Shown here: piece by piece, positions 13,599 through 34,930 of the stretch | How positions within the stretch are numbered: the first letter of the stretch is position 1 | How the letters are laid out: each line of letters opens with the position of its first letter | Assembly: GCF_001278075.1 (NCBI RefSeq) | Contig: NZ_CP011340.1 | Location: 2,232,001-2,296,000 of the forward strand | Origin: Streptomyces pristinaespiralis | GTDB taxonomy: Bacteria > Actinomycetota > Actinomycetes > Streptomycetales > Streptomycetaceae | Direction: 5' to 3' | DNA length: 64,000 nt | The notes under the pieces: model-generated | Databases searched by the model: none | What the model saw: the letters and a program-made list of their open reading frames with translations, nothing else | What the model was told of the DNA's origin: nothing | Program-made: the position numbers and the translations under genes

Positions 13599-14582
13599 TC
13601 ACCCCGCCGGGGCCGGCACCCGTCCGGCCTCGGGGGGCCGGACGGGCTGGGGGGCGGGCGGCTCGGCGCCGTCCGTCCCGGGGGCAGGCGGCATCGCACC
13701 GTCCGTGTGGGCGACGGGGAAGACGTGTGCGAGCCACGCGTACGTGCGGAGTTCCTCGAGCAGGCTCAGCCCGAGGCGGTTGTGGAGCATGTGCGCGTGC
13801 GAGAACAGGACCATGCCGGGGTGCGTGTCCGACTTCTCGCGGAGGTCGCCGGTCAGCGCCGCGAGCCCGTCGTGCCAGCGGGCGAACACCCCGTGGTCCA
13901 GCGGGTCGACGGGTGCGGCCCCGGCGGCCCGGGTGATGGTGGTGACGGAGTCGAGCAGGTCGCCCGGGTATCCCGCGTCGCCGGCCCAGGCGCGCCAGGC
14001 GCCGAGACCGTGGGCGTAGAAGTACGTGCGTTCCGTCGCGTCACCGAGGGCCGCCGCGGCGGCCATGGTGCCGCGCAGGGCGAGCAGGGCGCGGTGCCGC
14101 TCGGTCACGGCCTTGGGGACCAGGCCGAGGACCAGTTCGCTGGAGAGGCGGAAGAGGGCCTCGGTGGCGGGCATCAGCGCGGGGCCGCCGTAGCGGTCGA
14201 ACTCGGGCTCGTAGATGGCGCGGTGGACGCCGGGGGCGAGCAGTTCGCGGACGTTCCGGTCCTCCCCCTGCTCCCCCGCGGACGCCAGCTGTCCGGCGCT
14301 CCGCCGGTAGTCCTCGGCCGCCAGGGGTTCCTCACCGGCGGTGAGCCGGCCGGCGTCGGCCAGCCGCTCCCGCAGGGCGGCCTCGACCCGTCCGTACGTC
14401 GTCGGGTCGAGGTCGGCGATGCGCAGCCGCAGATGGGGGCCGGCCTGCCAGTAGCGGATGAAGAACCACGGCCGGTCCGCCGCCAGTTCCCGCACGGTCG
14501 GTCCGACGACCCGGGTCAGCACCCGGTCGTGGGCGGACCTGGCGGTGGTGGCGAGGTGCAGGTGCCACGAATTCCATGTCAT
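13599..14582 (-). CDS. Thiopeptide-type elimination-domain protein (SpaB_C, TbtC-like)
   Basis: A 327-residue protein of the thiopeptide-type bacteriocin biosynthesis family (SpaB_C fold). In split LanB systems this subunit removes glutamate from glutamylated Ser/Thr to leave dehydroamino acids. The N-terminal signature is WHLHLATT...DRVLTRVVGPTVRELAA followed by WFFIRYWQAGPHLRLRI, and a later HMLHNRLGLSLLEE motif is typical. The final ~40 residues are Pro/Ala-rich and probably disordered. ATG at 14582 has AAGGAG six bases upstream; the open frame extends upstream but without support. It is the last gene of the minus-strand operon, 11 bases after the nitroreductase-like gene. Confidence 0.85.
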   Translation of the reverse strand: MTWNSWHLHLATTARSAHDRVLTRVVGPTVRELAADRPWFFIRYWQAGPHLRLRIADLDPTTYGRVEAALRERLADAGRLTAGEEPLAAEDYRRSAGQLASAGEQGEDRNVRELLAPGVHRAIYEPEFDRYGGPALMPATEALFRLSSELVLGLVPKAVTERHRALLALRGTMAAAAALGDATERTYFYAHGLGAWRAWAGDAGYPGDLLDSVTTITRAAGAAPVDPLDHGVFARWHDGLAALTGDLREKSDTHPGMVLFSHAHMLHNRLGLSLLEELRTYAWLAHVFPVAHTDGAMPPAPGTDGAEPPAPQPVRPPEAGRVPAPAG

Positions 14583-14593
14583 GGAGCGCTCCT

Positions 14594-16198
14594 TCACAGT
14601 CTCAGGTCGAGCAGCGCGCCGCCGGTGTCCTGCGGGACTCCCACCACCGCGGACAGGACGATCGTCTCGTCCTCCTCCAGGCCGAGGACGCGCTGTACGG
14701 GTATCTCCTTGAACGCCCTGACGGGGCGCGCGAACAGGCCGGACGCCGCGGCGGACAGACACAGCCCGTGCACGGCCCAGCCGCAGGCGTGCTGCGCCGC
14801 GCCCCAGCCGGCCGGGCCGAGCCGCGCGAACAGCTCCCTGGGCCGTACGGACAGGAACACGCTCATGGGTGCGTTCTCGATGCCGCAGCCGTTGACGGGC
14901 GAGACGCCGTATCCGTAGTGCTCCTCCAGCAGGGCGGGTGCCTCGGCGTCCCGGCGCAGCAGGCGGGCGGTCCCCGCCTGTGCGCGGTGCACGCCGTCCT
15001 CGTGGCCGTCGACCCCCTGGGTGACGACGGTGATCCTGACGGCGTCGAAAGCCGCCGCGAGTTCGGGGCCCGGCGGCGGGACGGCGAGCCAGCGCAGGGC
15101 GGTGTCCAGTGCCTCGGCCGGCACGCGCCGGCGCCGTCCGGTCATCCCGTGCAGGGCGCGCGGCATTCGTCCCGAGTGGCGCTGCCAGAGCAGTTCGGCC
15201 CAGTCGGGGGTCCGCCGCGAGGCCGGCAGGCCGGCCGGGACGGCGGTGGTCAGCGGTACGGCGTCACCGGTGTACGTCTGGGTCCGGTTGATCCGGACGA
15301 GGTCGGCGAGCGCCGGGTCCCGCCGGGCGACGTCCGACGGAAGGGGATCGGGCGCGGTCCCGGCGGTCGTGGCGGTCGGCGGGTCGCCCACGTCGAGCAC
15401 GAAGGGCAGCGACCACTCCCAGGTGCGGTCCAGGCCGATGCCGTCGAGCACGGCGTGCGCGCCGGCATCCGGCGGCCTGAGCCGGGCCGGCAGCCCGAAC
15501 AGCTCGAGTCCGATGCTCAACGCCCGCAACACGATGCCCAGTTCGATGGCGACGAGCGAGCCGCGGAACCACTTGTAGGCGGAGGGGATCGCCGTGTAGC
15601 GCCCGGTGAGCGCGATCCGGCGGCCGGGGCCGGGACCGGGCGCGCCGGTCAGCGCGTGCCGGTCCGGCTCGAGCAGTCGCCAGGGGTCCTCGCCGCCGCC
15701 GTCCACGAAGGCGTGGACGGGGAAGAGGCAGCGCGGGGAGGCGTAGGACCTGTGGTCGTTGTACGGGTTCTCCGGCTCACGCCGCTGCGGCCCGAACGCG
15801 GTGACGAGCGCCCGGCCGAGCGGGTCGGTCACTCGGGAGCCGCCGGGGACGGGAGTGCCGCCCGCCGGCCCGGGGCCGCCGGAGACCGCAGCGCCACCCG
15901 TCCGCCCCGGGCCGCCGGGGACCCGTGGGAACGGCATGCGTTCCAGGAGGTCCACCGTGCCCAGCGGCAGGGTCGTGCGGGCGCCCCGGCCGCGCGGCGG
16001 CGGGGGCGGGACGTGATCGTCCGGCGGCGGCTCGGGCGTCCACGTCCACTCCGGCGCGGCCGGTTCGTCGTCGCCGGCGCCGTACGCGTACCAGAGCGGT
16101 TCGCGGGCGATGCTGTTGTCGCCCTCGGGCCCCGGCAGGTCGACCGGGCAGCCGCGGCCGGTCGCGGACCCGCCGCGGGGTGCGGTGGGCGCCGTCAC
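14594..16198 (-). CDS. Nitroreductase-like flavoprotein of thiopeptide cluster
   Basis: A 534-residue protein with two half-domains resembling the FMN nitroreductase fold. The later half contains RHSGRMPRALHGMTG, then HYGYGVSPVNGCGIENAPMS, then AAQHACGWAVHGLCLSAAAS and a terminal FKEIPVQRVLGLEEDETIVL block. Thiopeptide and TOMM clusters carry such proteins as azoline dehydrogenases that oxidise thiazolines and oxazolines. A typical SagB-type dehydrogenase is also present at 25294-26826, so this one may be the azole-forming enzyme, a partner, or an enzyme with a new role. The GTG at 16198 overlaps the YcaO stop (GTGA). Residues ~30-100 are Pro/Gly-rich linker. Confidence 0.7.
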   Translation of the reverse strand: MTAPTAPRGGSATGRGCPVDLPGPEGDNSIAREPLWYAYGAGDDEPAAPEWTWTPEPPPDDHVPPPPPRGRGARTTLPLGTVDLLERMPFPRVPGGPGRTGGAAVSGGPGPAGGTPVPGGSRVTDPLGRALVTAFGPQRREPENPYNDHRSYASPRCLFPVHAFVDGGGEDPWRLLEPDRHALTGAPGPGPGRRIALTGRYTAIPSAYKWFRGSLVAIELGIVLRALSIGLELFGLPARLRPPDAGAHAVLDGIGLDRTWEWSLPFVLDVGDPPTATTAGTAPDPLPSDVARRDPALADLVRINRTQTYTGDAVPLTTAVPAGLPASRRTPDWAELLWQRHSGRMPRALHGMTGRRRRVPAEALDTALRWLAVPPPGPELAAAFDAVRITVVTQGVDGHEDGVHRAQAGTARLLRRDAEAPALLEEHYGYGVSPVNGCGIENAPMSVFLSVRPRELFARLGPAGWGAAQHACGWAVHGLCLSAAASGLFARPVRAFKEIPVQRVLGLEEDETIVLSAVVGVPQDTGGALLDLRL

Positions 16199-18144
16199 GG
16201 GAACGGGTGCGGGTCGTAGGGGACGGCCCGGTGCTCCTGGCCGGTGCCGCGCAGGGCGGCCTCCAGCCTCGGCAGCCCGGCGAGGCGCTGCTGGGCGTGC
16301 CCGAAGCACATGGGCACGATGCCCGGCACGACCGCGCGGGCGACCGAGATGCCGGCGTCGGCGTGCTCGCGGCTGGTCTGGTCGACGAGCACGACCTGGT
16401 CGAGGCCGGCGTCGGCGAACAGGCTCCGTACGAAGTCGAGCGCGCCGCGGACGTCGCCGCCGGACTCCCGTGCCAGGCGCTGCGGCCAGCCGGGGAACGC
16501 CTCTTCCAGTGCGACCGCGGGGCCGCCGAGGGTGACGGTGGCCCGCTCGCGGGTCTCCGGCAGCGAGGAGAAGCGCACATGGTCCTCCAGCTCCTGCACC
16601 AGCCAGGGGTCCTCGACCATCGGCTCCACCTGTTCGCGCGTCCAGTCGACGGGGTTGGTGACGAGCTGGGCGACCTCCCGCAGGGCGCCGCGGATCGCGG
16701 ACCGAGGGTCGGCGCCGGAGCCGGCGGAGGAGAAGGTCGCCGGGAACGGGTTCCTGCGGTTCACCGCGAGGACCCACACCACCGGCAGGGCGATGTCCCG
16801 GGTCGCGACCAGGAGGTGCACGTCGAAGCCCCTGGCCCGGACCAGCTCGATCATGGCCCGGCTCGTCGGGTCGGTGATCGACGATTCGGGGATGTACGGC
16901 AGCGGCCTCGCCCGGTACCAGCAGGTGAGGAAGGCGTCGCGCTCGGCCAGCTCGAACAGCGAGTGGAGCGCGGCCTCCTCGAGGTTGGCGCCCACGGCGC
17001 AGCCGCTGGAGGACTCGTAGAAGTAGTGCTTGCGCTCGTGCGGGCCGACCGCGCGGGCCGCGCGGCGGTCCCTGCGGAAGGCGTACTCGTACTGGTAGAA
17101 GGCGTGGTCGGCGGGGACGAGCAGGGCCCGGCCGTCGGTGAGGTCGTGGCCCCACACCCAGTCCATTTCGGTGTGCTCGTCCGAGGGCGTCACCCGTGAG
17201 GTGGGGTGGTCGAGCTGCTCCTGCGTGTACCTGCCGAGCGTGCCGGGGTCCACGGCGTACTCGGCGACGTCCTTGTACGCACGGCCCGTGAGGACCGGGA
17301 TGTCGTACGGGAAACCACCGAGGCGCTCGTACGCCTCCAGCACGGCGACCGGCTCGGTCTCCGCGAACGTCTGCGCGCGGCCGTGGCCCATGGCGGGGGC
17401 GTCGGCCACGACGGCCATGCTCATCGCGAACGGCGCGTGGGACTCGCGCAGGATCGCCCGGACCGGTCCGAAGCGGGCGTCGACGAGGCGCTCGCGCAGC
17501 AGACCGCGTGCGACGAGGCGGCTGTCCGCGGACCGGGTCGGATCCCCGGCGGAGGCGGGCCGGCCGGTGAGCGCCGGCGGCAACGGGGGCGCGGCGCCGT
17601 CCAGTTGTTCCGCGTCCGGCCCGCACAGCGGGCAGTGGAAGCTGCGCGCGACGCGGTGCCGTCTCAGCCCCTTGGCGGAGACGGCGTAGGCCTCTCCGGG
17701 CCCGAGCGGCCGCTGCGCCAGATACTCCAGGGTCGCCCGGAGCAGTTCGGGGAGCAGCGGCGCGCTCGGGGACGGGGCCGCGGTGGCCCGGGTGAGGTCG
17801 CCGACGAGAGGGTGTTCGCGGATCGTTCTGTCGCGGACCTCGGCGCAGCCCGCGCAGCCCGCGCCGGTGCCCGGCCGCCACAGTGGGCCGATCACGACCT
17901 CGTCGTCGTGGAGCCGCACCGAGAGGTGGCCGCGGCCCGAGGCGGCGGCAGCGGCGAGCTGCCGGCGCTCCCAGTCGAGGTCCCAGCCCCGGTCGACGGC
18001 CACCGTGCCGTCGCTCGCCTCGGCGAGGAGCGCGATGACGCCGCGCCAGGTGCCGTCGGTGTACGGGGAGCCGGGGCGCCCGGTGAGCCCGGGTCCGGTG
18101 GCGACGCCCGGTGACCGGGTGCCGGGGGCCGTGTCAGTTGCCAT
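16195..18144 (-). CDS. YcaO-domain cyclodehydratase (TbtG-like)
   Basis: A 649-residue protein ending in a YcaO domain, the ATP-dependent enzyme that turns Cys/Ser/Thr side chains of the precursor into azolines by phosphorylating the amide backbone. The YcaO signature SSGCAVGANLEEAALHSLFE followed by LAERDAF is clear near residues 370-400. The first ~200 residues carry two Cys pairs (CAGCAEV and FHCPLCGPD) that could bind a structural zinc. The C-terminus ends in a Pro-rich PYDPHPFP, the PxPxP-type tail found in azoline-forming YcaOs. It overlaps the E1-like gene by 11 bases and is overlapped by the next gene, so the two partners are coupled. Confidence 0.9.
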   Translation of the reverse strand: MATDTAPGTRSPGVATGPGLTGRPGSPYTDGTWRGVIALLAEASDGTVAVDRGWDLDWERRQLAAAAASGRGHLSVRLHDDEVVIGPLWRPGTGAGCAGCAEVRDRTIREHPLVGDLTRATAAPSPSAPLLPELLRATLEYLAQRPLGPGEAYAVSAKGLRRHRVARSFHCPLCGPDAEQLDGAAPPLPPALTGRPASAGDPTRSADSRLVARGLLRERLVDARFGPVRAILRESHAPFAMSMAVVADAPAMGHGRAQTFAETEPVAVLEAYERLGGFPYDIPVLTGRAYKDVAEYAVDPGTLGRYTQEQLDHPTSRVTPSDEHTEMDWVWGHDLTDGRALLVPADHAFYQYEYAFRRDRRAARAVGPHERKHYFYESSSGCAVGANLEEAALHSLFELAERDAFLTCWYRARPLPYIPESSITDPTSRAMIELVRARGFDVHLLVATRDIALPVVWVLAVNRRNPFPATFSSAGSGADPRSAIRGALREVAQLVTNPVDWTREQVEPMVEDPWLVQELEDHVRFSSLPETRERATVTLGGPAVALEEAFPGWPQRLARESGGDVRGALDFVRSLFADAGLDQVVLVDQTSREHADAGISVARAVVPGIVPMCFGHAQQRLAGLPRLEAALRGTGQEHRAVPYDPHPFP

Positions 18145-19903
18145 CGTGGGTCTCCCGGGGGCGTTCCTCGGCCACTACGGGCCCGTACCAGAGGGGGATC
18201 TCGCCGAGTACGGCGTCGACGCGGGCCGGGTGGCCCGCCCAGCCGCGGCCGGTCTCCGCCGCGTGCTCGGTGAGCTGCTTGCGCAGGGTGCCGAGGACCG
18301 TGCTGTCGGCGAACAGCAGGGCGTCGGTGGAGACTTCGTCGACGGGGCCGATGCAGCCGGACGCGGCGGCGTCGGCCGTGGTGCGCCCTGCCGGGGTACC
18401 CGGGGTCGGCGTGCGCCCGGCCGACATGGCCTCGGACGCCGTGCTTCCGGACGTCGTGCTTCCGGACGTCGTGAGGGTGCGGGCGAGTGCGGTGCACCAG
18501 GCGTTGCGTACGGCCTCCGTGGCGGTGGCTCCCCACGCCTGCCCGAGCACCCCGGTGCCGTCGGTGACCTTGGCCAGGCGCCAGTCGAGGCCGGGGACGT
18601 GCAGCAGGCCGACGGCCGGTCCGCTGGCAAGCAGCGGGCGCAGGTGTTCCCGGATGCGGTGGGCCTCGGCGTCGACGTCGTCGTCCGTCGCCTCCCCGAG
18701 CGGCCGGGCGTCCGGCGTCAGCGTGCGCAGAGCTCCGTCCAGGAGCCAGTGTTCCTCCGTGAGCCCGGCGGCCGGGACGCCGTCCGCCTTCGGGCTTTCT
18801 GCCCGCAGCGCGGCCAGGGCGGCAGCCACCGTGGCGGTCTCCTGATGCGCCGCCCAGGCGACGACGGTGCCGGGGCGGCCGCCGCGCTGCTCCGCCGCGC
18901 GCAGCGCGAGCGGCATCTGGGGCAGGTCCTCGCCGGCGGCCGACGCGATCAGCCCCGTCCAGCGGCGGGCGACCGCGCCCGCCGCTTCGAGCGCCGTCTC
19001 CCCTTCCGGCATCGGCTGCGCCACGGCGTCCTGGAGGGAGCTCGGTCGGCCGGTCGCGGCCGCCACGTGAGCTCCCTCGACGGTCACCCGGTCGGAGACC
19101 AGGTCCGCCCCGTGCACGACATGGGCCTCGCCCATGGCAGCCGTACCCGTGAGGGTGTCGAAGATCAGTTGTCCGGCCAGTGCGCCGGCGAGGGCGTCCG
19201 CGACCGGGCGCGGTGCGGGGGTGACGTCCTCGGCGTCCGCCCAGGCGAGCGCCCGGTCGCGGAAGGCCGCCCAGGTACGGGCCCGGCCGGCTCCGGTGAG
19301 GGCCGGGCCGACGAGCGTGACCCGGCCGCCGAGCAGCAGCGGGAAGTAGGGGACGTGCTCCGGCAGTTCGGGCACCTGTCCCCCGGTCGCGTCGAGGACG
19401 GCGTCCATGGCGTCGTACGTGCCGCGGCGGGCGTCGAGGGAGCCGGTGACGGTCACGTCCGCCACGCCTGCCCTGCGCAGTCCGCGGGCGGCCGGGCCGG
19501 TGGCCTCCGGGGGGCCGGCGACGGTCACCCGGGCGGTGCGCAGCCGCTGGAAGGCCGCGTACGGGTCGTCGTGCAGGGACTCCAGGCGGGCCAGCGGCTC
19601 GGGGTGCCGCTCGCGCACCGCCGTCGGCGGTTCGGGTGCGGTGAGGGCCGCGGTGTCGAGGAGCATGCCGCTGTCGCGGAGCTTGCCGACCAGGTGGCGC
19701 ACGGCGGGGCGGGCCCGTTCCGTGCCGATGGCGGCGACGAGTTCGTCCTCGGTGGCCCCCTGCTCCAGCAGGGGGACGCATCCCTGGGCGACCGCGTGGA
19801 GGACATCGGAGCCGCGGAGCACGAAACTGCCGCGGACACCGCTGAAGTAGACGCCGCCGGGGACCGGCGCGAAGTGGAGATCCGGTCGGGCCTTGAGCTT
19901 CAT
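18134..19903 (-). CDS. E1-like leader-binding protein of the cyclodehydratase (Ocin_ThiF-like, TbtF-like)
   Basis: A 589-residue protein matching the Ocin_ThiF-like partner of YcaO enzymes. The N-terminus (MKLKARPDLHFAPVPGGVYF, followed by FVLRGSDVLHAVAQGCVPLLEQG) has the winged-helix RRE character that binds leader peptides. A middle part carries a degenerate Rossmann block (TARVTVAGPPEATGPAARGL) and lacks the Cys and ATP-site residues of true ubiquitin-like E1 enzymes. Its expected role is to deliver the precursor leader to the YcaO subunit. ATG at 19903 overlaps the LanB stop by four bases (ATGA), with GGGGAAGC upstream. A DTTSGSTTSGSTAS-like Ser/Thr linker is seen near residue 470. Confidence 0.8.
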   Translation of the reverse strand: MKLKARPDLHFAPVPGGVYFSGVRGSFVLRGSDVLHAVAQGCVPLLEQGATEDELVAAIGTERARPAVRHLVGKLRDSGMLLDTAALTAPEPPTAVRERHPEPLARLESLHDDPYAAFQRLRTARVTVAGPPEATGPAARGLRRAGVADVTVTGSLDARRGTYDAMDAVLDATGGQVPELPEHVPYFPLLLGGRVTLVGPALTGAGRARTWAAFRDRALAWADAEDVTPAPRPVADALAGALAGQLIFDTLTGTAAMGEAHVVHGADLVSDRVTVEGAHVAAATGRPSSLQDAVAQPMPEGETALEAAGAVARRWTGLIASAAGEDLPQMPLALRAAEQRGGRPGTVVAWAAHQETATVAAALAALRAESPKADGVPAAGLTEEHWLLDGALRTLTPDARPLGEATDDDVDAEAHRIREHLRPLLASGPAVGLLHVPGLDWRLAKVTDGTGVLGQAWGATATEAVRNAWCTALARTLTTSGSTTSGSTASEAMSAGRTPTPGTPAGRTTADAAASGCIGPVDEVSTDALLFADSTVLGTLRKQLTEHAAETGRGWAGHPARVDAVLGEIPLWYGPVVAEERPRETHDGN

Positions 19904-23747: not shown

Positions 23748-23976
23748 TTTTTCGCACCTTCCGGGAAATCGAGAAATGACTCGGGAACACCGAATCGAAA
23801 TGTCGGCCCTGAATGCCTTGCGAGAATCATGTGACACGGAAAAGCGGCGAGGAAGGCGATGCGGGGCGGCCGCTTACATACGTCACCGCTTTCATGACAC
23901 CCGCGCCGCCGGCATGACGGTCCGCCCGTGGCCGAAACCCGTCAGCCGGGCGTGGAGATCGCTGTACCCTCCGGCC

Positions 23977-27158: not shown

Positions 27159-28631
27159 GTGCTCACTCGTCGTCATGCAATACGGCTCGGGCTCACCGCG
27201 GGCGCCTTCGGCGCCGTCGGCGCGGCGGGCGGGCTCTTCCAGACCCTGGCCGCGGGGGGACCGGCGAACGCCGCCCCGGCGGGCGCCGGGGCGGCGGCAG
27301 GGCCGGCGGTCACGCCGTTCACGGTGCCGCTGCCGGTGCCGAAGGTGCTGCGCCCCTACCGCAGGACGAGGTCCGCCGACCACTACGCGGTGGCCATGAG
27401 CCGGACCTCGCTCGAGATCCTTCCCGGTCGGCGCACCGAGGTCCTCACCTACAACGGGTCCTTCCCCGGCCCCACCATCCGGGCCCGCTCCGGGCGCACC
27501 GCGGTCGTCAGGCAGATCAACCTGCTCGACATGCCCACCTCGGTGCACCTGCACGGCGCGAACAACCCGGTGGAGAGCGACGGCGGGATGATGGACACGA
27601 TCGCGCCGGGCCGTTCCAAGACGTACGTGTACGCCAACAGGCAGCCGGGCGCGACGCTGTGGACCCATGACCACGCCCATCACATGGAGTCCGAGCACGT
27701 CTACCGCGGCCTGTCGGGCCTGTATCTGCTCGGCGACGAGCAGGAGGACGCGCTCGGCCTGCCGTCGGGGCGCTACGAGGTGCCGCTGGTCCTGCGGGAC
27801 GCGCACTTCGACGCGTCCGGCCGGATGGTGTACACGATGGACGACGCCGAGAACCGGACCACGATCCTGGTCAACGGCCGGCCGTGGCCGTACATGAAGG
27901 TCGAAGGACGCAAGTACCGCTTCCGGATGCTCAACTCGTCCAACCTTCGCATCTTCATCCTGGCGCTGTCCGACGGCAGCCAGGTGACGCAGATCGGCGC
28001 CGACGGCGGACTGCTCCCGGCGCCCGCGCCCACTCCCGTCCTGGTCCTCTCCCCCGGCGAGCGGGCCGACTTCGTCATCGACTTCTCCAAGTACGCGCCG
28101 GGCACGCAGCTGGAGCTCAGCAACATGCTGGGGCCCGGCCCCGCCGACCTGGTCGGCCGGATCATGCGCTTCGACGTGGGCGACAGGACCCCCGACGACA
28201 GCCGGGTCCCCGACGTGCTGACGACCCTGCCGGCGCTGCCGAACCCCACGGTGGAGCGGACCTTCGAGCTCCAGATGGACGAACCGGGCAGCGGCGGCCA
28301 CCAGGCGTACATCAACGGCAGGACCTTCGACGCGAACCGCATCGACACCGAGATCAAGTGGGGCACCACGGAGGTCTGGACCGTCACCAACGCCAGTGTC
28401 ACCGTGCCGCACAACTTCCATACGCACCTGGTCCAGTTCCGCATTCTCGAAAGGGACGGGCAGCCGGTCTACCCGGCGGAGGCGGGACTCAAGGACACCG
28501 TGCTCCTTTTCCCCGGGCAGACGGTCAAATTGCAGATGACCTTCGACACCCACCGGGGCGTCTATCCGTACCACTGCCACATGATCGACCACAGCGCCAT
28601 GGGAATGATGGCGCAGATGAAGATCGTGTGA
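27159..28631 (+). CDS. Tat-exported multicopper oxidase
   Basis: A 490-residue three-domain multicopper oxidase of the CotA/phenoxazinone-synthase/laccase class, which oxidises phenols or o-aminophenols and reduces O2 to water. A twin-arginine signal is at the N-terminus (TRRHAIRLGLTAGAFGAVGA), so it acts outside the cell. All copper ligand motifs are visible: HLHG (~residue 130), WTHDHAHH (~170), VPHNFHTHLVQF (~420) and YHCHMIDHSAMGMM (C-terminus), the last giving type 1 Cys, His and Met. GTG at 27159 has AAGGA eight bases upstream and puts the RR motif at residues 4-5. As first gene of the AHBA operon it may oxidise 3,4-AHBA or a peptide carrying it. Confidence 0.85.
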   Translation: MLTRRHAIRLGLTAGAFGAVGAAGGLFQTLAAGGPANAAPAGAGAAAGPAVTPFTVPLPVPKVLRPYRRTRSADHYAVAMSRTSLEILPGRRTEVLTYNGSFPGPTIRARSGRTAVVRQINLLDMPTSVHLHGANNPVESDGGMMDTIAPGRSKTYVYANRQPGATLWTHDHAHHMESEHVYRGLSGLYLLGDEQEDALGLPSGRYEVPLVLRDAHFDASGRMVYTMDDAENRTTILVNGRPWPYMKVEGRKYRFRMLNSSNLRIFILALSDGSQVTQIGADGGLLPAPAPTPVLVLSPGERADFVIDFSKYAPGTQLELSNMLGPGPADLVGRIMRFDVGDRTPDDSRVPDVLTTLPALPNPTVERTFELQMDEPGSGGHQAYINGRTFDANRIDTEIKWGTTEVWTVTNASVTVPHNFHTHLVQFRILERDGQPVYPAEAGLKDTVLLFPGQTVKLQMTFDTHRGVYPYHCHMIDHSAMGMMAQMKIV

Positions 28632-28695
28632 CCTCTCCCGCAGGACGATCCGCCTGATTCTCCAGGCATTTCCGACGCGAAAAGGAAGGAGGAAC

Positions 28696-30414
28696 ATGAT
28701 TACCACCCGATCCGTGCCCTACGTACGCCGTATTCTCGACGCACTCGGCAGGGACCCCGACCGGGCGGTCGTGCACCGGCGCGACGGAAGCGTCGCGGCG
28801 GGTGAACTGACCGACTCGATCCTCGGCACCACGACCCTGCTGTACGACCACGGTGTCGGAACGGGCGACACCGTCGCCGTCCTCACCGGACCGAACCATC
28901 CGCTGATGCTCAGCGCCCGGTACGCCGTCCACCTCTTGGGCGCGACCTCCGTGTACGTACGGTCGATGAACCCGAGGACGGACACAGAGACCTTCTCGGT
29001 CAGCACCCAGACCGAGCTGCTGCGCGACCTCGGTGTGCCGCTCCTGCTGGTGGACGAGGAGAGCGCCGAGCGGGGGCGCTGGCTGTCCAACCGTCTGCCG
29101 GGGCTGACCGTCCTGCCGATCCCGCCGGGCGCCCCCGCGCACCCCGTGCCGCTCGGCCGGCTACGGGAGGGCCGGCCGGACGCCCTGGCGGTCGTCGACT
29201 TCACCAGCGGCGGCTCCGGCCGCCCCAAGATGGTGGCGCAGCGCTACGGCACCCGTGAAGAGCTCGTCAGCCGCCTCGCACATGGCCTCGATCCCCGGGG
29301 ACCCGCGACGCTGCTGTCGGTCACGCCCATCAGCCATACGACGGCGCCGATGGCCGACGCCGTCCTGCTCAGCGGCGGGACGGTGGTGCTGCACGACGGG
29401 TTCGACGCCGACGACGTGCTGCGCGCCTTCGCCGAGCAGCGGGTCACGGACGTCTACCTCGCCGTCCCGCACCTGTACCGGCTGCTCGACCATCCGGACA
29501 TCGCGAGGACCGACCTGTCGTCCCTGCGCCGCATCACCTACAGCGGCACACCGGCGGCGCCGGCCCGGGTGGCGCGGGCGGTGGAACTCTTCGGCGACGT
29601 ACTGATCCAGGTGTACGGCACCACGGAGGCCGGCGGCATCAGCAGCCTCAACCCACTGGACCACCGTGAACCGGAGCTGCTCGGCTCCGTCGGCCGCCCC
29701 TTCCCCTGGGTGCGCGTGGAGATACGCGCTCCGGGCGGGGGCCCGGTGGTCGAGCGCGGTGTCACGGGCGAGATCTGGGTGAACTCGCCCACCGTCACGG
29801 CCGGTTACCTCGACGACGTGGAGCTCACCGGCACGGCGCTCAAGGACGGCTGGCTGCTCACCGGCGACCTCGGGCACTGGGACCGGTACGGCTACCTCCG
29901 CCTCGACGGCCGTGTCGGGGACGTCATCAAGCACGGGGGTCTCAAGCTGGATCCGGCCGCCATCGAGCGGGCGCTCCTGGGACACCCGCAGGTGCGGCAG
30001 GCCACGGTCTTCGGCGTACGCGACCGGGACTACGTGGAGCAGGTGCACGCCGCCGTCGAACTGCACTCCGGCGCCTCACGGACCTCGAGCGACCTGCGGG
30101 GGTACGTCGCCGCGACGCTCACGCCGGAGCACGCGCCGGTCCGGGTCTCCGTGTGGCCCCGGCTCCCGCTCACGCCCTCGGGAAAGCCCGACCGCACCTA
30201 CCTGCGCTCGGTCACGGCACCACCGGACGAGACCCGTCCGCCAGCCGCCCCGGCGCACGACATCCGGACGCCCGTGCGCGCCCACCGGCGCGGCGCGGTG
30301 CCCGGTACGAGCCCCCCGCGCGAAGCCACCGCGCGGGCCGATCCCGTCCGCAGAGGCGGCGCGGGGTCCTTGCCCGATCACGCAATCCCGCGAAGCAGAA
30401 AGGGCGTCACATGA
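28696..30414 (+). CDS. AMP-forming acyl/aryl acid ligase
   Basis: A 572-residue member of the ANL superfamily (acyl-CoA synthetase/aryl-acid ligase). Motifs are DFTSGGSGRPKMV (A3 phosphate loop, ~residue 165), YGTTEAGG (A5), TGDLGHWDRYGYLRLDGR (A7/A8) and the catalytic lysine in TPSGKPDR (A10, ~500). About 65 residues beyond A10 are Arg/Pro-rich and look disordered; no carrier-protein serine motif is seen there. It likely adenylates 3,4-AHBA made by the next two genes. A strong AAGGAGG precedes the ATG, and the stop overlaps the aldolase start (ATGA). Confidence 0.85.
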   Translation: MITTRSVPYVRRILDALGRDPDRAVVHRRDGSVAAGELTDSILGTTTLLYDHGVGTGDTVAVLTGPNHPLMLSARYAVHLLGATSVYVRSMNPRTDTETFSVSTQTELLRDLGVPLLLVDEESAERGRWLSNRLPGLTVLPIPPGAPAHPVPLGRLREGRPDALAVVDFTSGGSGRPKMVAQRYGTREELVSRLAHGLDPRGPATLLSVTPISHTTAPMADAVLLSGGTVVLHDGFDADDVLRAFAEQRVTDVYLAVPHLYRLLDHPDIARTDLSSLRRITYSGTPAAPARVARAVELFGDVLIQVYGTTEAGGISSLNPLDHREPELLGSVGRPFPWVRVEIRAPGGGPVVERGVTGEIWVNSPTVTAGYLDDVELTGTALKDGWLLTGDLGHWDRYGYLRLDGRVGDVIKHGGLKLDPAAIERALLGHPQVRQATVFGVRDRDYVEQVHAAVELHSGASRTSSDLRGYVAATLTPEHAPVRVSVWPRLPLTPSGKPDRTYLRSVTAPPDETRPPAAPAHDIRTPVRAHRRGAVPGTSPPREATARADPVRRGGAGSLPDHAIPRSRKGVT

Positions 30415-31379
30415 CCTCATACGGCCACTTCGCCCGGTCGCTGCGGCTGCGGCGGCTCTACCGCCACAGCACTGCCGGCCTGATGATCACCCCTCTCGAC
30501 CATTCGATCAGTGACGGTCCCGTGGTGCCCAAGGGCACGACGCTCGACCACCTCGCCGGCCGGCTCGCGGCCGGCGGTTCGGACGCCGTCGTCGTGCACA
30601 AGGGCAGTGTGCGGCACATCTCTCCGGAGCGGTTCGCCGCCATGTCGCTGATCATCCATCTGAACGCGAGCACCAGCCGGGCGCTCGACCCGAACGCCAA
30701 GTACGTCGTGGCCGGGGTCGAGGAGGCACTCCGCCTCGGCGCGGACGCGGTGAGCGTCCACGTCAACCTCGGCTCCGACGACGAGCGGGAGCAGATCGGC
30801 GACCTGGGCAGGATCGCCGACGCCTGCGACCGCTGGAACCTGCCGCTGCTCGCCATGGTGTATCCGCGCGGGCCGCGGATCACCGATCCCCGGGACCCGG
30901 AGATGGTCGCGCACGCCGTGACGATCGCCGCCGACCTGGGGGCCGACCTGGTCAAGACCGTGTTCCTGGGGTCGACCGCGGAGATGCTCGACCTCACCGC
31001 GGCCTGTCCGGTCCCGGTCCTCGTCGCCGGGGGCCCCGCCCTCGACAAGGAGGAGGACGTGCTCGCGTACGTACGCGACGCGCTGGCCGGCGGCGCGGGG
31101 GGAGTCGCCATGGGACGCAACATCTTCCAGGCCGCCGACCCGCGGCGGCTGGCGGCGAAGGTCGCCCGGCTGGTCCACCACTTCCCCGAACAGCACTTCG
31201 GTACCGGCCCGTTCGCCGGCGGCGACGCACGGCTCGACGGCGAACGCCTCACCCCGCACCACCTGGACGACACGCACCTCGACCCCGCGCATCCCGACCA
31301 TCCACGCCTCGACGACTCACGTCTCGACGTTTCGACAGGAGGTCCGCATCATGACGGACGCCAAACTGTGCTGGCTTGA
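30411..31379 (+). CDS. griI: GriI-like aldolase for 3-amino-4-hydroxybenzoate
   Basis: A 322-residue class I aldolase of the DhnA/AroA' family. GriI of grixazone biosynthesis joins aspartate semialdehyde to dihydroxyacetone phosphate to give the C7 precursor of 3,4-AHBA. Motifs are MITPLDHSISDGPVV near residue 25 and DLVKTVFLGS with the Schiff-base lysine K182. The last ~45 residues are unusual: a His/Asp/Leu-rich tail (HHLDDTHLDPAHPDHPRLDD and more) absent from ordinary members. The 3' end overlaps the next gene by 29 bases, so the tail may partly be a by-product of that overlap. The pair with the next gene defines the pathway; archaeal-type dehydroquinate formation is the alternative reading. 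Confidence 0.85.
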   Translation: MTSYGHFARSLRLRRLYRHSTAGLMITPLDHSISDGPVVPKGTTLDHLAGRLAAGGSDAVVVHKGSVRHISPERFAAMSLIIHLNASTSRALDPNAKYVVAGVEEALRLGADAVSVHVNLGSDDEREQIGDLGRIADACDRWNLPLLAMVYPRGPRITDPRDPEMVAHAVTIAADLGADLVKTVFLGSTAEMLDLTAACPVPVLVAGGPALDKEEDVLAYVRDALAGGAGGVAMGRNIFQAADPRRLAAKVARLVHHFPEQHFGTGPFAGGDARLDGERLTPHHLDDTHLDPAHPDHPRLDDSRLDVSTGGPHHDGRQTVLA

Positions 31380-32460
31380 CATCCGCGACGCCGGCTCCGC
31401 CACCGCCGCCATCCTGGAGGAGGCGGTCCACCAGCGCATCGACGGCGTGGTCGCCGCCGATCCCGCCGCCTTCACCGGTCTGCCGCCGACCGTCCGCAAG
31501 ATCCTTCTCTACCCGGACGGGAACGTGCCGGACGACATCGGCACGGCCGACCTGGTCGTCGTGCCCGGCGGCAAGGACGCGCGCGCCCCGCTCGCCGAGG
31601 CGCACCCGGACGTGGAGTTCGGCCGTTACGTCGAGATCGTCGACGCCGACACCCTCGAGGACGCCTGCCTGGCCGCGCGTCTGGAGGCCTGGAGCGTCCT
31701 CGACTTCCGCGACCCCACCAAGATCCCGCTGGAGATCGTGATCGCGGCCGCCACCGGCGCACCGGGGTCGATCATCACGACCGCCGCCAACCAGGAGGAG
31801 GCCGAGATCGTCTACGGCGTGCTCGAACTGGGGTCGGACGGTGTGCTGATGCCGGGCCGCACCGTCGGGGACGCGACCGCGCTGCGTACGGCCGCGTCCT
31901 CCCGTACCGGTGAGATCCCCCTGGTCGAGCTGACCGTGACCGCGGCGACCCACATCGGCATGGGCGAGCGTGCCTGTGTCGACACGACCACCCACTTCCG
32001 CAAGGACGAGGGCATTCTGGTGGGCTCGCACTCCAAGGGCATGGTGCTCTGCGTCAGCGAGACGCACCCGCTGCCGTACATGCCCACGCGGCCCTTCCGG
32101 GTCAACGCGGGCGCGCTGCACTCCTACACCGTGGCGCAGAACGGGCGCACCCACTACCTGAGCGAACTGCACGCCGGCAGCTCGGTCCTGGCGGTGGACG
32201 TCAAGGGCCGCACCCGGCCGGTCAGCGTCGGCCGGGTCAAGATCGAGACCCGTCCGCTGATCTCCATCGACGCGGTCGCCCCCAACGGACAGAGCGTCAA
32301 CCTGATCCTCCAGGACGACTGGCACGTACGGGTCCTTGGCCCCGGCGCCTCGGTGCTCAACAGCACGGAACTGAAGCCCGGAGACACGATCCTGGGTCAC
32401 CTGCCGACGGCCGACCGTCATGTGGGCTACCCGATCAACGAGTTCTGCCTGGAGAAGTAG
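31351..32460 (+). CDS. griH: GriH-like 3-amino-4-hydroxybenzoate synthase (DHQ synthase II family)
   Basis: A 369-residue protein of the 3-dehydroquinate synthase II family. GriH converts the C7 amino-keto phosphate from GriI into 3,4-AHBA without NAD or redox. Family blocks are GADLVVVPGGKD-type text at ~70, DFRDPTKIPLEIVIAAA (~120), GSDGVLMPGRTVGDA, HIGMGERACVDTTTHFRKDE and VGSHSKGMVLCVSETHPLPY, then RPFRVNAGALHSYT. The length is normal. The ATG has a strong AGGAGG. It is the last gene of the oxidase-ligase-griI-griH operon and is followed by a terminator. Confidence 0.9.
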   Translation: MTDAKLCWLDIRDAGSATAAILEEAVHQRIDGVVAADPAAFTGLPPTVRKILLYPDGNVPDDIGTADLVVVPGGKDARAPLAEAHPDVEFGRYVEIVDADTLEDACLAARLEAWSVLDFRDPTKIPLEIVIAAATGAPGSIITTAANQEEAEIVYGVLELGSDGVLMPGRTVGDATALRTAASSRTGEIPLVELTVTAATHIGMGERACVDTTTHFRKDEGILVGSHSKGMVLCVSETHPLPYMPTRPFRVNAGALHSYTVAQNGRTHYLSELHAGSSVLAVDVKGRTRPVSVGRVKIETRPLISIDAVAPNGQSVNLILQDDWHVRVLGPGASVLNSTELKPGDTILGHLPTADRHVGYPINEFCLEK

Positions 32461-32526: not shown

Positions 32527-32558
32527 CGGCGCGCGTCCGGCCCCGTACCGCCCCGCGC

Positions 32559-33164
32559 TCACAGCCAGCCGTGTTCGCTCGCGATGCGCGCGGCATCGAA
32601 CCGGTTGCGGCCGCCGAGCTTCTTGATGGCCGCGGAGGTCAGATTGCGTACGGTGCCGGCGGCGAGATACAGCTCCCCCGCGATCTCCTTCACGCTGGCG
32701 CCCCCGGCGGTCAGCCGCAGGACGTCCATCTCCCGGACGCTGAGCGCGGTCTCCCCCGCGACGGCCGGTCTCAGCAGCGCGGGATCCACCGTCAGGCATC
32801 CGCCCGCCACCCCCATGAGCGTGGTCACCAGTTGCGGCAGCCGCGCGTTCTTCGGCACGACGCCCAGGGCGCCCGCCGCCACGGCCCGGTCGACCACCGC
32901 GGGCGTGGCCGCGCCGACCATCAGGGCGACGCCGCACCACGGGTGCGCGGACCGGACGTCGGTCGCGGCCCGCAGAGCCTTGCCGCCCATGGTGCTCTCC
33001 CCGAGGAGCAGCACGGTCGGCCGGTGCCGTTCGACAGCGGGCATGACGGCCTCGTAGCTGGTGGCGAGACCGACGACGTCCAGCCCGTCGGTGCCGTTCA
33101 GCGTTTCCGCGAACGCTTCCAGGACGAGTTGGTGATCGCCGGCGACGACGACGCGAATGGACAT
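32559..33164 (-). CDS. LuxR-type response regulator with degenerate receiver
   Basis: A 201-residue NarL/LuxR-like regulator. The C-terminal DNA-binding domain is intact (LSVREMDVLRLTAGGASVKE followed by IAGELYLAAGTVRN). The N-terminal receiver fold is kept, but its phosphorylation site is not: where a normal receiver has the acidic DD pair it has VVAGDHQLV, and where the phospho-accepting Asp should follow RPTVLLL it has Gly (LLLGES). The switch Thr is replaced too (ALMVGAA), although the conserved Lys (VVPKNA) remains. It is therefore probably active without a kinase, or gated by a ligand or protein. No kinase gene is adjacent. It shares a strand with the SDR-like gene 30 bases upstream. 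Confidence 0.85.
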   Translation of the reverse strand: MSIRVVVAGDHQLVLEAFAETLNGTDGLDVVGLATSYEAVMPAVERHRPTVLLLGESTMGGKALRAATDVRSAHPWCGVALMVGAATPAVVDRAVAAGALGVVPKNARLPQLVTTLMGVAGGCLTVDPALLRPAVAGETALSVREMDVLRLTAGGASVKEIAGELYLAAGTVRNLTSAAIKKLGGRNRFDAARIASEHGWL

Positions 33165-33194
33165 GTCCTACCCCCGTGACGATGTGATGGATGA

Positions 33195-33734
33195 TCAGGC
33201 GGACCGTCTGCGGTCCGGGGTGCGGCTCAGTGCCGCGACCAGCCGCTCCACCGCGGAACGGGCCGGCTGGTCGTCGCACCGTGCGGCGTGCGCGGCGGCT
33301 GGGGCGCCCGGGTCGACCTCGATGTGCGGTGCGCCCGCCGGCAGGGCCAGGGCGACGGCGGACGAGACGGCGTGGAAGGTCTCCACGAGCCGGTCGGACG
33401 CGCCGCACCGAGGGACGACGACGATCGAGGCGCTGACGGGCCCGATGTCCGCGGAGATCTGGCCGGGGAGCCCGGCAACCGCCTCTGTGTCCTCGGCGTC
33501 CACCTGGTAGGGCAGTGCCACGTGTCCGATGCCGGCGAGCTCCTTGCAGAGGAAGGCGGCGTTGGTCGCCGCGTCGTCACCGCGTCCCGGATGCCCCGCG
33601 CCGACCACGGCGACGGCCGCACCCGCGGCGCAGAGCCGTGCGGTGATGGCCCTGCCGATGCCCGTGGTGCCGTCGACGACCAGGACGACGCAGCCGGCGA
33701 GCGGCGCGGGCGCGTAGGACGCTGCGAGGGACAC
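33195..33734 (-). CDS. Short SDR-like NAD(P)-binding protein, catalytic residues missing
   Basis: A 179-residue protein with a clear dinucleotide-binding start (CVVLVVDGTTGIGRAITARL, matching the TGxxxGIG signature with one change) and an Asp near residue 78 where SDR enzymes bind adenine. It is about 70 residues shorter than a classical SDR and has no YxxxK active-site pair, so it should not act as a normal reductase. It could be a decayed gene or a cofactor-sensing partner of the response regulator beside it. The GTG start has GAAGGAG six bases upstream. It is divergent from the TrmB/LuxR regulator. Confidence 0.6.
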   Translation of the reverse strand: MSLAASYAPAPLAGCVVLVVDGTTGIGRAITARLCAAGAAVAVVGAGHPGRGDDAATNAAFLCKELAGIGHVALPYQVDAEDTEAVAGLPGQISADIGPVSASIVVVPRCGASDRLVETFHAVSSAVALALPAGAPHIEVDPGAPAAAHAARCDDQPARSAVERLVAALSRTPDRRRSA

Positions 33735-33949
33735 GGCCGGCTCCTTCGGGAGTTGCGACAGACTTGGGACGGTCCTGAATCCCGCCGCCCTGTCAAGAAG
33801 ATCGATCAGCGGGTAACGTGCGGAAAGCGTGCGGAGGGTGAAAGGAACTCACTGTCGGCGGATGTGTGCGGGTCGGCCGAAGTGCGTTCCGAAGGGCCCT
33901 GACACGTGGGTGAATAAACGTTCAACCGTGGTCAAGGGGGAAACACCAC

Positions 33950-34930
33950 GTGGATGAAGTTTCGTCATTGGATCAAGAGACCCTCGCGGTCTACCGCGCG
34001 ATCCTGTTCCACAAGGAATACGACCCGAAACGGCTCGCGGACCTTGTGGACAGCAGTTGTGAGGAAGTCGAGGCGGCACTCGACCGGTTGTCGCAGCTCT
34101 CCCTCCTCGCACCGTCCCAAGTCGCTCCCGGCCAGCTGCGGGCGGTGAATCCGTCGCTCGGCCTGAAGGTCCTGCTCCAGCGGGAGGAACGCGAACTGGC
34201 CTGGCGTCAGCAGCGGATCGAGCAGAACCGTGCCGCCCTCGCCGCGCTCGCGGCCGAATACACCGCCTCCGGCTGGGCCGGGAACCTCGACGGAACGGAG
34301 CTTCTCGACAATGTCGACGACATCCGGATCCGCCTCGAGGCCCTCGCCGAGTCCTGCACGCGGGAATCTCTCGCGTTCCACCCCGACAACACCCTCACCG
34401 AGGGATCGGTCGAGGCGGGCCGCCCCCTCAACGAGCGGGCCCTCGCACGCGGTGTGCGCTTCCGCTCCATCTACCTGGACAGTGTCGCCAACGACCGCGT
34501 CACCAAGGCGCACGCGCAGTGGATGGCGGAGCGGCAGAGCGAGATACGGACCTCGCCGACCCTGCCGATGCGGCTGCTCATCGTCGACACGTCGGCCGCG
34601 ATCGTCGCCGGCCTCCCCGGCCAGGCCCAGCCTTCGGCCCTGCTGTTCAGCAGTCCCCCGGTGGTCCTGGCCATGCGGGCGCTGTTCGAGGCGTACTGGG
34701 AGCACGCCAGCCCGATGGACGCCCCGGTCTCCCGGGCCGGCGGACTGACCCCGCAGGAGCGCAAGTTGCTCCAGCTGCTCGCCACCGGACTCACCGACGA
34801 GGCCGTGGCCAGGGCGCTGGGCATCGGGGTGCGCACCGAGCGGCGCATCGTGGCCGAGCTCATGGAACGGCTCGGGGCGTCCAGCCGGTTCGAGGCCGGC
34901 GTGCAGGCCACCCGGCGGGAGTGGATCTGA
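33950..34930 (+). CDS. TrmB/LuxR-type transcriptional regulator
   Basis: A 326-residue regulator with a TrmB-like winged helix at the N-terminus (YRAILFHKEYDPKRLADLVD), a coiled segment (~75-105), a phospholipase-D-like or ligand-binding middle (residues ~140-250) and a C-terminal LuxR helix-turn-helix (LTPQERKLLQLLATGLTDEA). This architecture is common among pathway-specific regulators in Streptomyces RiPP and polyketide clusters. The GTG start follows AAGGGGGA by about nine bases. It is the last gene that fits the cluster on this side; control of the precursor and AHBA promoters is inferred, not shown. Confidence 0.8.
   Translation: MDEVSSLDQETLAVYRAILFHKEYDPKRLADLVDSSCEEVEAALDRLSQLSLLAPSQVAPGQLRAVNPSLGLKVLLQREERELAWRQQRIEQNRAALAALAAEYTASGWAGNLDGTELLDNVDDIRIRLEALAESCTRESLAFHPDNTLTEGSVEAGRPLNERALARGVRFRSIYLDSVANDRVTKAHAQWMAERQSEIRTSPTLPMRLLIVDTSAAIVAGLPGQAQPSALLFSSPPVVLAMRALFEAYWEHASPMDAPVSRAGGLTPQERKLLQLLATGLTDEAVARALGIGVRTERRIVAELMERLGASSRFEAGVQATRREWI

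Follow-up and report, generated by a model that had tools for sequence, protein, structure and literature searches.

A cluster spanning approximately positions 9533–34930 of the window, as we call the 64,000-nt stretch of Streptomyces pristinaespiralis DNA analysed here, appears to join a thiopeptide pathway to the synthesis of 3-amino-4-hydroxybenzoate (3,4-AHBA). Judged from sequence, it combines a thiopeptide enzyme set, an AHBA gene pair, an AMP-forming ligase of C5N amide synthase descent (Lig) and an FAD monooxygenase (FADmo), all co-inherited. We propose with moderate confidence that these constitute one pathway, whose product would be a thiopeptide that contains a pyridine and carries, as an amide on its C-terminal carboxylate, an aminophenol made from 3,4-AHBA. 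The original prediction had also read the RiPP and AHBA halves as one hybrid pathway, a view that co-inheritance in relatives supports, and all of the genes that it listed were found (precursors, split LanB, E1-like and YcaO proteins, dehydrogenases, a second SpaB_C-like protein, and the divergent operon of multicopper oxidase, ligase, GriI-like and GriH-like genes, all on the + strand at 26937–32460; Table 1). Its left border at 13599 is moved here to approximately 9533, because FADmo, an ABC transporter ATPase and a permease are conserved with the cluster.

Table 1. Predicted features of the thiopeptide/AHBA cluster (window coordinates).
Feature	Position	Strand	Evidence and distribution
FAD monooxygenase (FADmo)	9533..10744	-	PF01494 5.5e-24; in 21/21 clusters and G134
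ABC transporter ATPase (DrrA-like)	11018..12004	+	TIGR01188 6.2e-69, below its cut-off; conserved with cluster
ABC-2 type permease	11995..12819	+	named from sequence reading; adjoins ATPase in 13/13 clade-1 clusters
LanB C-terminal type (glutamate elimination, predicted)	13599..14582	-	PF14028 1.8e-36; TIGR03891 5.2e-32
Nitroreductase-like azoline dehydrogenase	14594..16201	-	PF00881 2e-5; in 21/21 clusters and G134
YcaO cyclodehydratase (SagD family)	16195..18144	-	PF02624 2.1e-70; TIGR03604 5.5e-70
E1/ocin-ThiF-like, leader-binding N-terminus	18134..19906	-	PbtF domain 8t19, 2.7e-6 over residues 4-82
LanB N-terminal type (tRNA-Glu dependent glutamylation, predicted)	19900..22551, start approximate	-	solved lantibiotic dehydratase 6ec7, 1.3e-10
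TbtD/PbtD-like pyridine synthase (the second SpaB_C-like protein)	22569..23750	-	NF045556 1.1e-28
Small membrane protein	23905..24531	+	PF22765 weak, 3.5e-4; in 13/13 clade-1 clusters
Precursor copy 2	24681..24860	-	NF033400 1.9e-16; tail ...LPEMGA/SSGSIGTSSSSSSTCSAC
Precursor copy 1	24896..25069	-	NF033400 2.2e-16; tail identical to that of copy 2
ThcOx/SagB-type azoline dehydrogenase	25294..26826	-	PF22767 (ThcOx) 2.9e-30; TIGR03605 (SagB) 1.4e-50
Multicopper oxidase, Tat-like signal	26937..28631, start approximate	+	PF07732/PF07731; top solved match bilirubin oxidase 8.8e-79
AMP-forming amide synthase (Lig; predicted aminophenol amine-peptide acid joining)	28696..30414	+	PF00501 7.1e-46
GriI/BagB/FevI-like aldolase of 3,4-AHBA synthesis (predicted)	30411..31379	+	NF041223 2.6e-114, 380.8 bits vs cut-off 500
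GriH/BagC/FevH-like 3,4-AHBA synthase (predicted)	31351..32460	+	NF041224 2.2e-178, 592.8 bits vs cut-off 750
NarL-type response regulator	32559..33164	-	PF00072 and PF00196
Short SDR-like protein	33195..33734	-	PF00106 8.7e-6, just under its cut-off; clade 1 only (13/13; not found in clade 2)
LuxR-type regulator	33950..34930	+	PF00196 7.4e-7; clade 1 only (13/13; not found in clade 2)

The peptide half is, by predicted function, a complete set for a pyridine-forming thiopeptide. Profile and structure matches place a YcaO protein, an E1-like leader-binding protein and a dehydrogenase in the window, together with both parts of a split LanB, for whose N-terminal part a Pfam search gave no match, even at E 5. 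The pyridine synthase scores 100 bits with its model, under the equivalog cut-off of 325, and its Tyr337 aligns with the active-site Tyr of PbtD, which is Phe or Ala in entries 8ejz and 8ejy; this residue is kept in 16 of the 17 aligned pyridine synthase rows, among them that of the window, and the remaining row is truncated ahead of that position. Both precursor copies score above the cut-offs for NF033400, TIGR03892 and PF19409, and have a typical leader and a Ser/Cys core. A pattern search found 89 precursor copies, every one of which has Cys as its last residue; as the pattern requires a Ser/Cys/Thr-rich end, this uniformity is valid for pattern-findable precursors; Lys occurs in only one of 19 distinct tails. 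The lactazole/thiomuracin-type systems (LazA; Tbt, Pbt) have in common with this half the precursor family, split LanB, YcaO, E1-like protein, dehydrogenase and a pyridine synthase with the conserved Tyr, and lactazole also shares the position of Ser1, where the leader ends, and a pyridine site rich in Ser (PMC7210931, available sections). The present cluster differs from them in having a run of 5–9 Ser with a Cys end, a second, ThcOx-type dehydrogenase (which occurs in clades 1 and 3), and, in addition, the two AHBA genes, FADmo, an exported oxidase and a ligase descended from C5N amide synthases.

In a genus sample of 392 genomes, 21 (the window's genome included) contain a close pyridine synthase match (E<1e-100), and all of these have a GriH-like AHBA synthase nearby, at 7.3–7.7 kb in 13 and at 15.2–17.1 kb in 8; none of the other 37 genomes, whose pyridine synthase matches are weaker, has one within 20 kb. 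The original prediction had named separate loci for the two halves in relatives as the outcome that would count against it, and the halves lay together in every close genus relative. With both halves within 17.1 kb in all 21, the linkage is more than chance. Named genomes add further clusters with differing gene orders, and of the 39 named thiopeptide loci that carry the ligase, 36 have a GriH (34 in the locus, one approximately 2.4 kb past its edge and one on another draft contig). Thiopeptide, ligase and GriH genes are present in 45 distinct sequenced strains, in one of which GriH lies on a different contig; several of the 45 bear culture-collection numbers in their record titles. Gene order is rearranged from one clade to another, with the clade-2 precursor directly preceding Lig-GriI-GriH-FADmo. 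In three sister clusters the ligase is retained but no AHBA genes lie nearby; these clusters have an NRPS module in their place.

The GriI- and GriH-type genes of the window are adjacent, and their top models are BagB/FevI and BagC/FevH, both with scores under the curated cut-offs. A branch with 100/99 support separates the GriH proteins of thiopeptide clusters from those of the 8 other AHBA loci in the comparison; the GriH of the window is 51–53% identical to those of four C5N/AHBA loci and up to about 66–72% identical to those of other AHBA clusters. The grixazone, bagremycin, ferroverdin and crexazone clusters likewise combine a GriI/GriH-type pair with a nearby oxidase, whereas here a multicopper oxidase and FADmo are present, and we know of no ribosomal peptide in the first three. 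The crexazone cluster is also without one, as far as the available sections of PMC11429834 describe it. According to the same sections, conserved AHBA and NRPS regions adjoin in the crx cluster, with AHBA compounds independent of the NRPS, and by this precedent one co-regulated locus might yield two products acting together, a thiopeptide and, apart from it, a small AHBA compound (e.g., a phenoxazinone or an amidophenol). We consider such an arrangement quite improbable here: the AHBA region occurs alone in some crx strains, whereas in all rows of the comparison thiopeptide genes were found alongside the GriH group, the linkage is kept despite the reshuffled gene order, and Lig stays with the thiopeptide genes in the three loci that have no AHBA genes nearby.

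Lig is present in all 21 genus clusters, and 37 thiopeptide/AHBA rows form a single clade in its tree (100/99). In a rooted tree (43 rows in all, with 9 distant ligases as outgroup), it is nested among ALAS-flanked C5N amide synthases (AMS), which lie on both sides of supported branches. We read its sequence as that of an AMS descendant, although the substrate choice of an inherited fold is not readable from a tree. C5N amide synthases couple carboxylic acids to ring amines; the C5N unit is formed and attached under the direction of three enzymes, an amide synthase, a cyclising ALAS and an ALA-CoA ligase (PMC4525017, in part). An ALAS match is absent within 1.5 kb on each side of the window genome's ligase (locus L229), and from every thiopeptide row of the tree. 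Lig therefore differs from the manumycin-type AMS, in whose family it is nested, in having no cyclising ALAS beside it, and may act like an AMS through descent while not being part of a C5N cluster. Four near relatives of Lig sit in loci also holding ALAS, GriI and GriH, which read as manumycin-type. Given its ancestry, it is most likely that the amine comes from the AHBA-derived aminophenol and the acid from the C-terminus of the thiopeptide.

This orientation reverses that of the original prediction, in which the ligase attached an aryl acid by analogy with nosiheptide, where an indolic acid is put on the thiopeptide by an adenylating enzyme. The two systems would share a thiopeptide with an aromatic acid-derived unit added by an adenylating enzyme, but here no conserved carrier protein or transferase was seen, and we propose an amide bond formed with the aromatic amine. 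If Lig instead activated the carboxylate of 3,4-AHBA, it would acylate the peptide at its N-terminus, at a side chain or as an ester, as in other thiopeptides, a possibility that we regard as unlikely. It is favored by the top solved sequence matches of Lig (6sq8, 6h1b and 8pyy), which we take to be McbA (6sq8 and 6h1b) and ShABS (8pyy), enzymes that activate an aryl acid. This assignment fits the K483A mutant of PMC6282839, which, in the sections available, also has McbA accepting many aryl acids. The McbA residues E400, Y402 and D201 (PMC6282839 and PMC10804368, both in part) are not kept in the alignment with Lig, which has a GG-L-K stretch and His214 in their place, so that Lig is not simply McbA or ShABS; at the position of D201, however, CARs and DhbE also have His, a point in favor of acid activation. 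Besides the nesting of Lig in the C5N amide synthases, activation of the AHBA acid is opposed by the AHBA-tracking FADmo, whose relatives include enzymes that remove such a carboxylate, and by the loci themselves, in which no conserved carrier protein or acyltransferase gene was seen (gene calls read, without a profile search). Furthermore, pyridine synthases expel the leader (PMC7210931, in part), so the peptide would have no N-terminal amine to acylate, and the scarcity of Lys in the tails argues against a Lys side chain.

FADmo tracks the AHBA genes. It lies beside the cluster in all 7 further named genomes where contigs allow judging, and in the three AHBA-less sister genomes the top FADmo matches are below 40% identity. 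Its solved relatives include tropone 2-monooxygenase (9e-87), decarboxylative vanillate 1-hydroxylase (2.5e-67), 4-hydroxybenzoate decarboxylase (1.1e-61) and 6-hydroxynicotinate 3-monooxygenase (9e-57), itself a decarboxylating enzyme, ahead of salicylate mono-oxygenase/hydroxylase entries (8e-44, 7e-38). The first of the PDB ranking, tropone 2-monooxygenase, is no decarboxylase; decarboxylating enzymes are second, fourth and fifth, and the third entry is unnamed. FADmo is likely to act on AHBA or an AHBA amide, and its resemblance to decarboxylating 4-hydroxybenzoate hydroxylases makes an aminohydroquinone a likely form. FADmo-like matches in the four loci with C5N and AHBA genes are 27–28% alike (three loci) or were not found (one), so there is no common descent with the manumycin-type oxidation.

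The second oxidant varies, being a multicopper oxidase in clade 1 (13/13 clusters), an F16 hydroxylase in clade 2 (8/8, and G134) and a second FADmo in clade 3 (6/6 genomes tested). The multicopper oxidase contains TRRHAIRLGL near its N-terminus (a Tat-like signal, by reading) and could possibly carry out an extracellular oxidation step. It was not found in 44–48 kb around 6 of the 8 clade-2 relatives, and in the 7 clade-3 loci no copy was detected within 10 kb of the ligase. Its identification as the phenoxazinone synthase PhsA was rejected (NF045554, 219.5 bits vs the cut-off of 950). Given this distribution, the quinone-imine/phenoxazinone route via the multicopper oxidase, which the original prediction had put forward as a possibility, is not a general rule. 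In that route the oxidase would make an AHBA o-quinone imine, to be trapped by a core Cys or to form a phenoxazinone dimer, as in grixazone, where GriF produces the o-quinone imine (PMC11429834, in part). The constancy of the oxidase in clade 1 and the Cys that ends all tails found would suit such chemistry, but we consider it very improbable, since the oxidase was not found around 6 of the 8 clade-2 clusters, its PhsA score is low, and Lig, present throughout the genus clusters, is left without explanation.

In the amidation pathway that we favor, azoles would be formed by YcaO and the dehydrogenases and dehydroalanines by the split LanB, and the pyridine synthase would join Ser1 (of ...GA-S) to a later Ser, with expulsion of the leader. 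GriI and GriH would supply 3,4-AHBA, which FADmo would hydroxylate, probably with loss of CO2, to give 2-aminohydroquinone, before or after coupling. Lig would adenylate the C-terminal acid of the peptide (Cys in every precursor found) and join it to the ring amine, and the second oxidant, here the exported multicopper oxidase, would then act on the hydroquinone, with an amidoquinone as a possible extracellular product. A more elaborate version, which we offer only tentatively and hold to be doubtful as a whole, is a thiopeptide with a C-terminal amido-hydroquinone made by decarboxylating hydroxylation, a captured C5N-type ligase and an exported oxidase that yields a reactive amidoquinone; relatives would use a second flavin enzyme, add an aminodeoxysugar or swap in an NRPS-made unit, and C-terminal capping by this enzyme would be the common trait of a modular RiPP hybrid family.

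We found no description of a peptide-aminophenol hybrid of this kind. If the proposal is true, the cluster would represent a kind of thiopeptide whose aromatic cap is of non-ribosomal origin and is attached by an enzyme taken over from manumycin-like pathways. It would also provide a stand-alone ligase for peptide C-termini as an engineering handle, and an antibiotic scaffold bearing a candidate quinone warhead. The natural series of AHBA, AHBA plus sugar, and NRPS would then show the exchange of RiPP caps.

The peptide half of the cluster, in a genome that is a single contig of 8.53 Mb, is a real thiopeptide gene set; its genes and those of the divergent operon are listed in the table. Pfam gives no match for LanB N, even at E 5, and the models for the genes of 3-amino-4-hydroxybenzoate (3,4-AHBA) synthesis score below their own cut-offs in the window. 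Tyr337 of the pyridine synthase aligns with the PbtD tyrosine (Phe in 8ejz, Ala in 8ejy), which is kept in 16 of 17 aligned pyridine-synthase rows, the window included, these being all the rows that cover the site.

Genes of the hybrid cluster in the window
Feature	Coordinates	Strand	Remark
LanB C	13599-14582	-	
Nitroreductase-like dehydrogenase	14594-16201	-	
YcaO	16195-18144	-	
E1-like protein	18134-19906	-	matches small PbtF domain 8t19
LanB N	19900-22551	-	phmmer match to 6ec7
Pyridine synthase, TbtD/PbtD-type	22569-23750	-	adjoins precursors on their strand
Precursor peptide gene	24681-24860	-	passes curated thiopeptide precursor cut-offs
Precursor peptide gene	24896-25069	-	passes curated thiopeptide precursor cut-offs
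ThcOx/SagB-type dehydrogenase	25294-26826	-	
Multicopper oxidase	26937-28631	+	divergent from thiopeptide genes
Ligase (Lig)	28696-30414	+	divergent operon
GriI-like	30411-31379	+	divergent operon
GriH-like	31351-32460	+	divergent operon

Elsewhere in the window, 4443-8702 encodes an RHS-repeat protein of 1419 aa with a T7SS signal domain, likely a polymorphic effector, with no counterpart found in the other clusters' fetched loci. A CBM2-domain protein outside the cluster (37467-40199) is probably a secreted glycan-degrading enzyme, and an EF-G-like translation factor 15 kb to the right of the cluster (49787-51922) may serve self-protection or be just a second EF-G of the ordinary kind.

The original prediction that the RiPP and AHBA genes travel together is borne out in the 392-genome genus sample, where the pyridine synthase is matched in 58 genomes and GriH in 82. 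In every one of the 21 genomes with a pyridine synthase at E<1e-100, GriH is on the same contig, at most 17.1 kb away, the distance being 7.3-7.7 kb in 13 (clade 1, window included) and 15.2-17.1 kb in eight (clade 2). None of the other 37 pyridine-synthase genomes has GriH within 20 kb, and three of these carry it elsewhere (G039, on another contig, G058 and G361). With GriH nearby in 21/21 versus 0/37, a chance neighbourhood of the two halves is ruled out. Lig, GriI and GriH occur together in all 21 fetched genus loci and in a 22nd, G134, which is cut short by its contig. The clade-2 order is pyridine synthase, LanB N, E1, YcaO, dehydrogenase, LanB C, ABC transporter, and then precursor-Lig-GriI-GriH-FADmo (FADmo being an FAD monooxygenase); equal content in differing gene orders is far stronger evidence of linkage than a single conserved order would be.

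Species-representative contigs were also scanned by means of 15 aligned Lig proteins and two Lig peptide patterns, which matched 186 stretches (174 relatives), and the best 80 of the 174 were kept. Such a scan is blind to thiopeptide clusters without Lig, and the pyridine-synthase scan of the genus is the fairer test. Among the best 80 of 174 relatives, 40 loci have at least 43% identity (L123-L161, L166). In L159, genes for a cyclising-ALAS-type protein, a Lig homologue and a further ligase stand together (the triad for the C5N unit, 2-amino-3-hydroxycyclopent-2-enone) and there are no thiopeptide genes; it was left out of the count, and L136, whose contig begins there, was scored as thiopeptide from a ThcOx-type dehydrogenase alone. 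GriI and GriH lie inside the locus in 34 of the remaining 39 (again among the best 80 of 174). GriH is about 2.4 kb beyond the locus edge in L145 (Micromonospora musae) and on a different contig of the draft in L131; L157, L161 and L166 have no GriH nearby; a search of the L157 and L166 genomes found no copy at all, and the genome of L161 has one on another contig. Fourteen of the 39 loci, L157 among them, are from genomes already in the genus sample, so that the genus sample and the best 80 of 174 named relatives together give at least 48 distinct strains, at least 45 of them with GriH. Actinacidiphila and Micromonospora are both represented in a third clade (L141-L145, L150 and L160). By reading, L145 seems to have two pyridine-synthase-like genes (5666-6916 and 20152-21453), the second of which has no Pfam match.

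Both window precursor tails read LPEMGA-SSGSIGTSSSSSSTCSAC. A pattern search of the 22 genus and 40 named loci, which overlap, found 89 precursor copies with 19 distinct tails, the copies including genomes counted under both sets of names. In all 89, Ser comes first after the leader's Gly/Ala-Ala and Cys comes last. The clade-1 tail is identical in 57 copies, with differing leaders, and in clade-2 tails a variable stretch is followed by CC, a run of 5-8 Ser, and a final CC or CCCC. The search found no precursor in G043, L135, L136, L141, L143, L151 or L159; those of L141 and L143 have a variant leader, AQPEMGA, with the tail SGGTVGTSSSSSTCSSSTC, that of L135 seems collapsed or truncated, and the rest are unexplained or off the contig. 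In lactazole, according to excerpts of PMC7210931, Ser1 pairs with Ser12, the minimal motif being an azole ahead of that Ser, and known thiopeptide rings are 26-35-membered. Applied to the window precursors, this reading makes Ser1 the Ser of GA-S. By our own arithmetic from the tails, pairing Ser1 with the last Ser of the run, the rings would be 35-membered in clade 1, 32-membered in clade 3 and 38- to about 74-membered in clade 2; the first two are inside the known range and the last is outside it, so that the lactazole rule may fail in clade 2. In G066 and G115 (the latter also represented by L146) the cluster holds three precursor genes, each differing in its variable stretch, which suggests a small natural library.

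The best solved matches of Lig are 6sq8, 6h1b, 8pyy, 8pyx and 8ppp, which we take to be McbA and ShABS. In 6h1b a Lys is replaced by Ala, in agreement with the K483A structure of McbA in the available text of PMC6282839. These matches favor an aryl acid as substrate, and count against our model, in which Lig would join the C-terminal acid of the peptide to the ring amine of an AHBA-derived aminophenol. As an McbA-type enzyme, Lig was rejected, because E400, Y402 and D201, the McbA residues of note in parts of PMC6282839 and PMC10804368, are not kept. The amide synthase of L159 has homologues in 116 of the 392 genus genomes at E<=1e-60, and an ALAS homologue lies no more than 1.5 kb away in 14 of 30 fetched amide-synthase loci. 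In a 58-row Lig tree, built from ligases of at least 400 aa (which excludes L166) and with each genome entered once, 37 thiopeptide/AHBA ligases form one clade (100/99) and two rows with neighboring NRPS genes form another. In an outgroup tree of 34 chosen ligase rows and nine distant ligases, ALAS-flanked amide synthases lie on both sides of supported branches, with the thiopeptide ligases nested among them. The GriH tree compared just eight other AHBA loci, L055, itself a thiopeptide cluster, being left out.

According to excerpts of PMC4525017, the C5N unit is formed and attached under the direction of an amide synthase, a cyclising ALAS and an ALA-CoA ligase. The C5N amine is beside an enol OH, and 3,4-AHBA and aminohydroquinone share this NH2-next-to-OH pattern. 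The likeness, with the descent of Lig from C5N amide synthases, suggests that the peptide acid would acylate the aromatic amine; the chances of a C-terminal amide through the ring amine are about even. That an AHBA-derived unit is coupled to the peptide at all we consider quite probable. The crx case in the available parts of PMC11429834 cautions that conserved neighboring regions can yield separate products, although in crx the AHBA region also occurs alone.

FADmo (9533-10744, minus strand, in the window) is present in 21/21 clusters and in G134. Among 12 further named genomes, seven (G392, G398-G403) carry it inside the locus or no more than about 3 kb away, and G397 carries it on another contig; G394 (the L159 genome) and G393, G395 and G396, whose clusters are without AHBA genes, give best-scoring matches of less than 40% identity. 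Its best solved match is a tropone hydroxylase, which counts against the proposed model. Manumycin-type oxidation by descent was rejected, since flavin monooxygenase matches are 27-28% in three of four C5N+AHBA loci, with none in the fourth. The multicopper oxidase was rejected as a general central step; it is found in 13/13 clade-1 clusters, in 2/8 of clade 2, with none in the 44-48 kb fetched around the other six, and in none of the seven clade-3 loci within 10 kb of Lig. An MhpA-like hydroxylase (F16) is in all eight clade-2 clusters and G134, and a second FADmo adjoins the first in all six clade-3 genomes examined, L143 being the seventh. Each AHBA clade holds a second oxidant, by differing means, and this repeated recruitment suggests further oxidation of the AHBA unit, which in the window may occur outside the cell, given the Tat-like signal (by reading) on the multicopper oxidase. 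Decarboxylation with a quinone end product is rather unlikely.

Beside the clade-2 clusters of G066 (L096), G115 (L101), G134 and G329 are aminodeoxysugar genes and an EryCIII-like glycosyltransferase, confirmed in G066 as 2,3-dehydratase, RfbH-like dehydrase, aminotransferase, glycosyltransferase and thymidylyltransferase, so that some clade-2 products are probably glycosylated.

L157, L161 and L166 are sister clusters that share the precursor type and the ligase, and have an NRPS module in place of the AHBA genes. In L161 the precursor and Lig are followed directly by an NRPS with condensation, AMP-binding and carrier domains, and next by a P450; a similar NRPS starts after Lig in L157 and L166, by reading of the translations. 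In these sisters the ligase has kept its place beside the precursor, and the partner unit seems to have been swapped. In the open-licence literature we found no paper pairing a thiopeptide with an amide bond synthetase, and the two that mention both thiopeptide and 3-amino-4-hydroxybenzo do so incidentally in the excerpts available; other titles and abstract openings hold nothing on this combination. The hybrid cluster is real and co-inherited, and is a new form of thiopeptide biosynthesis.
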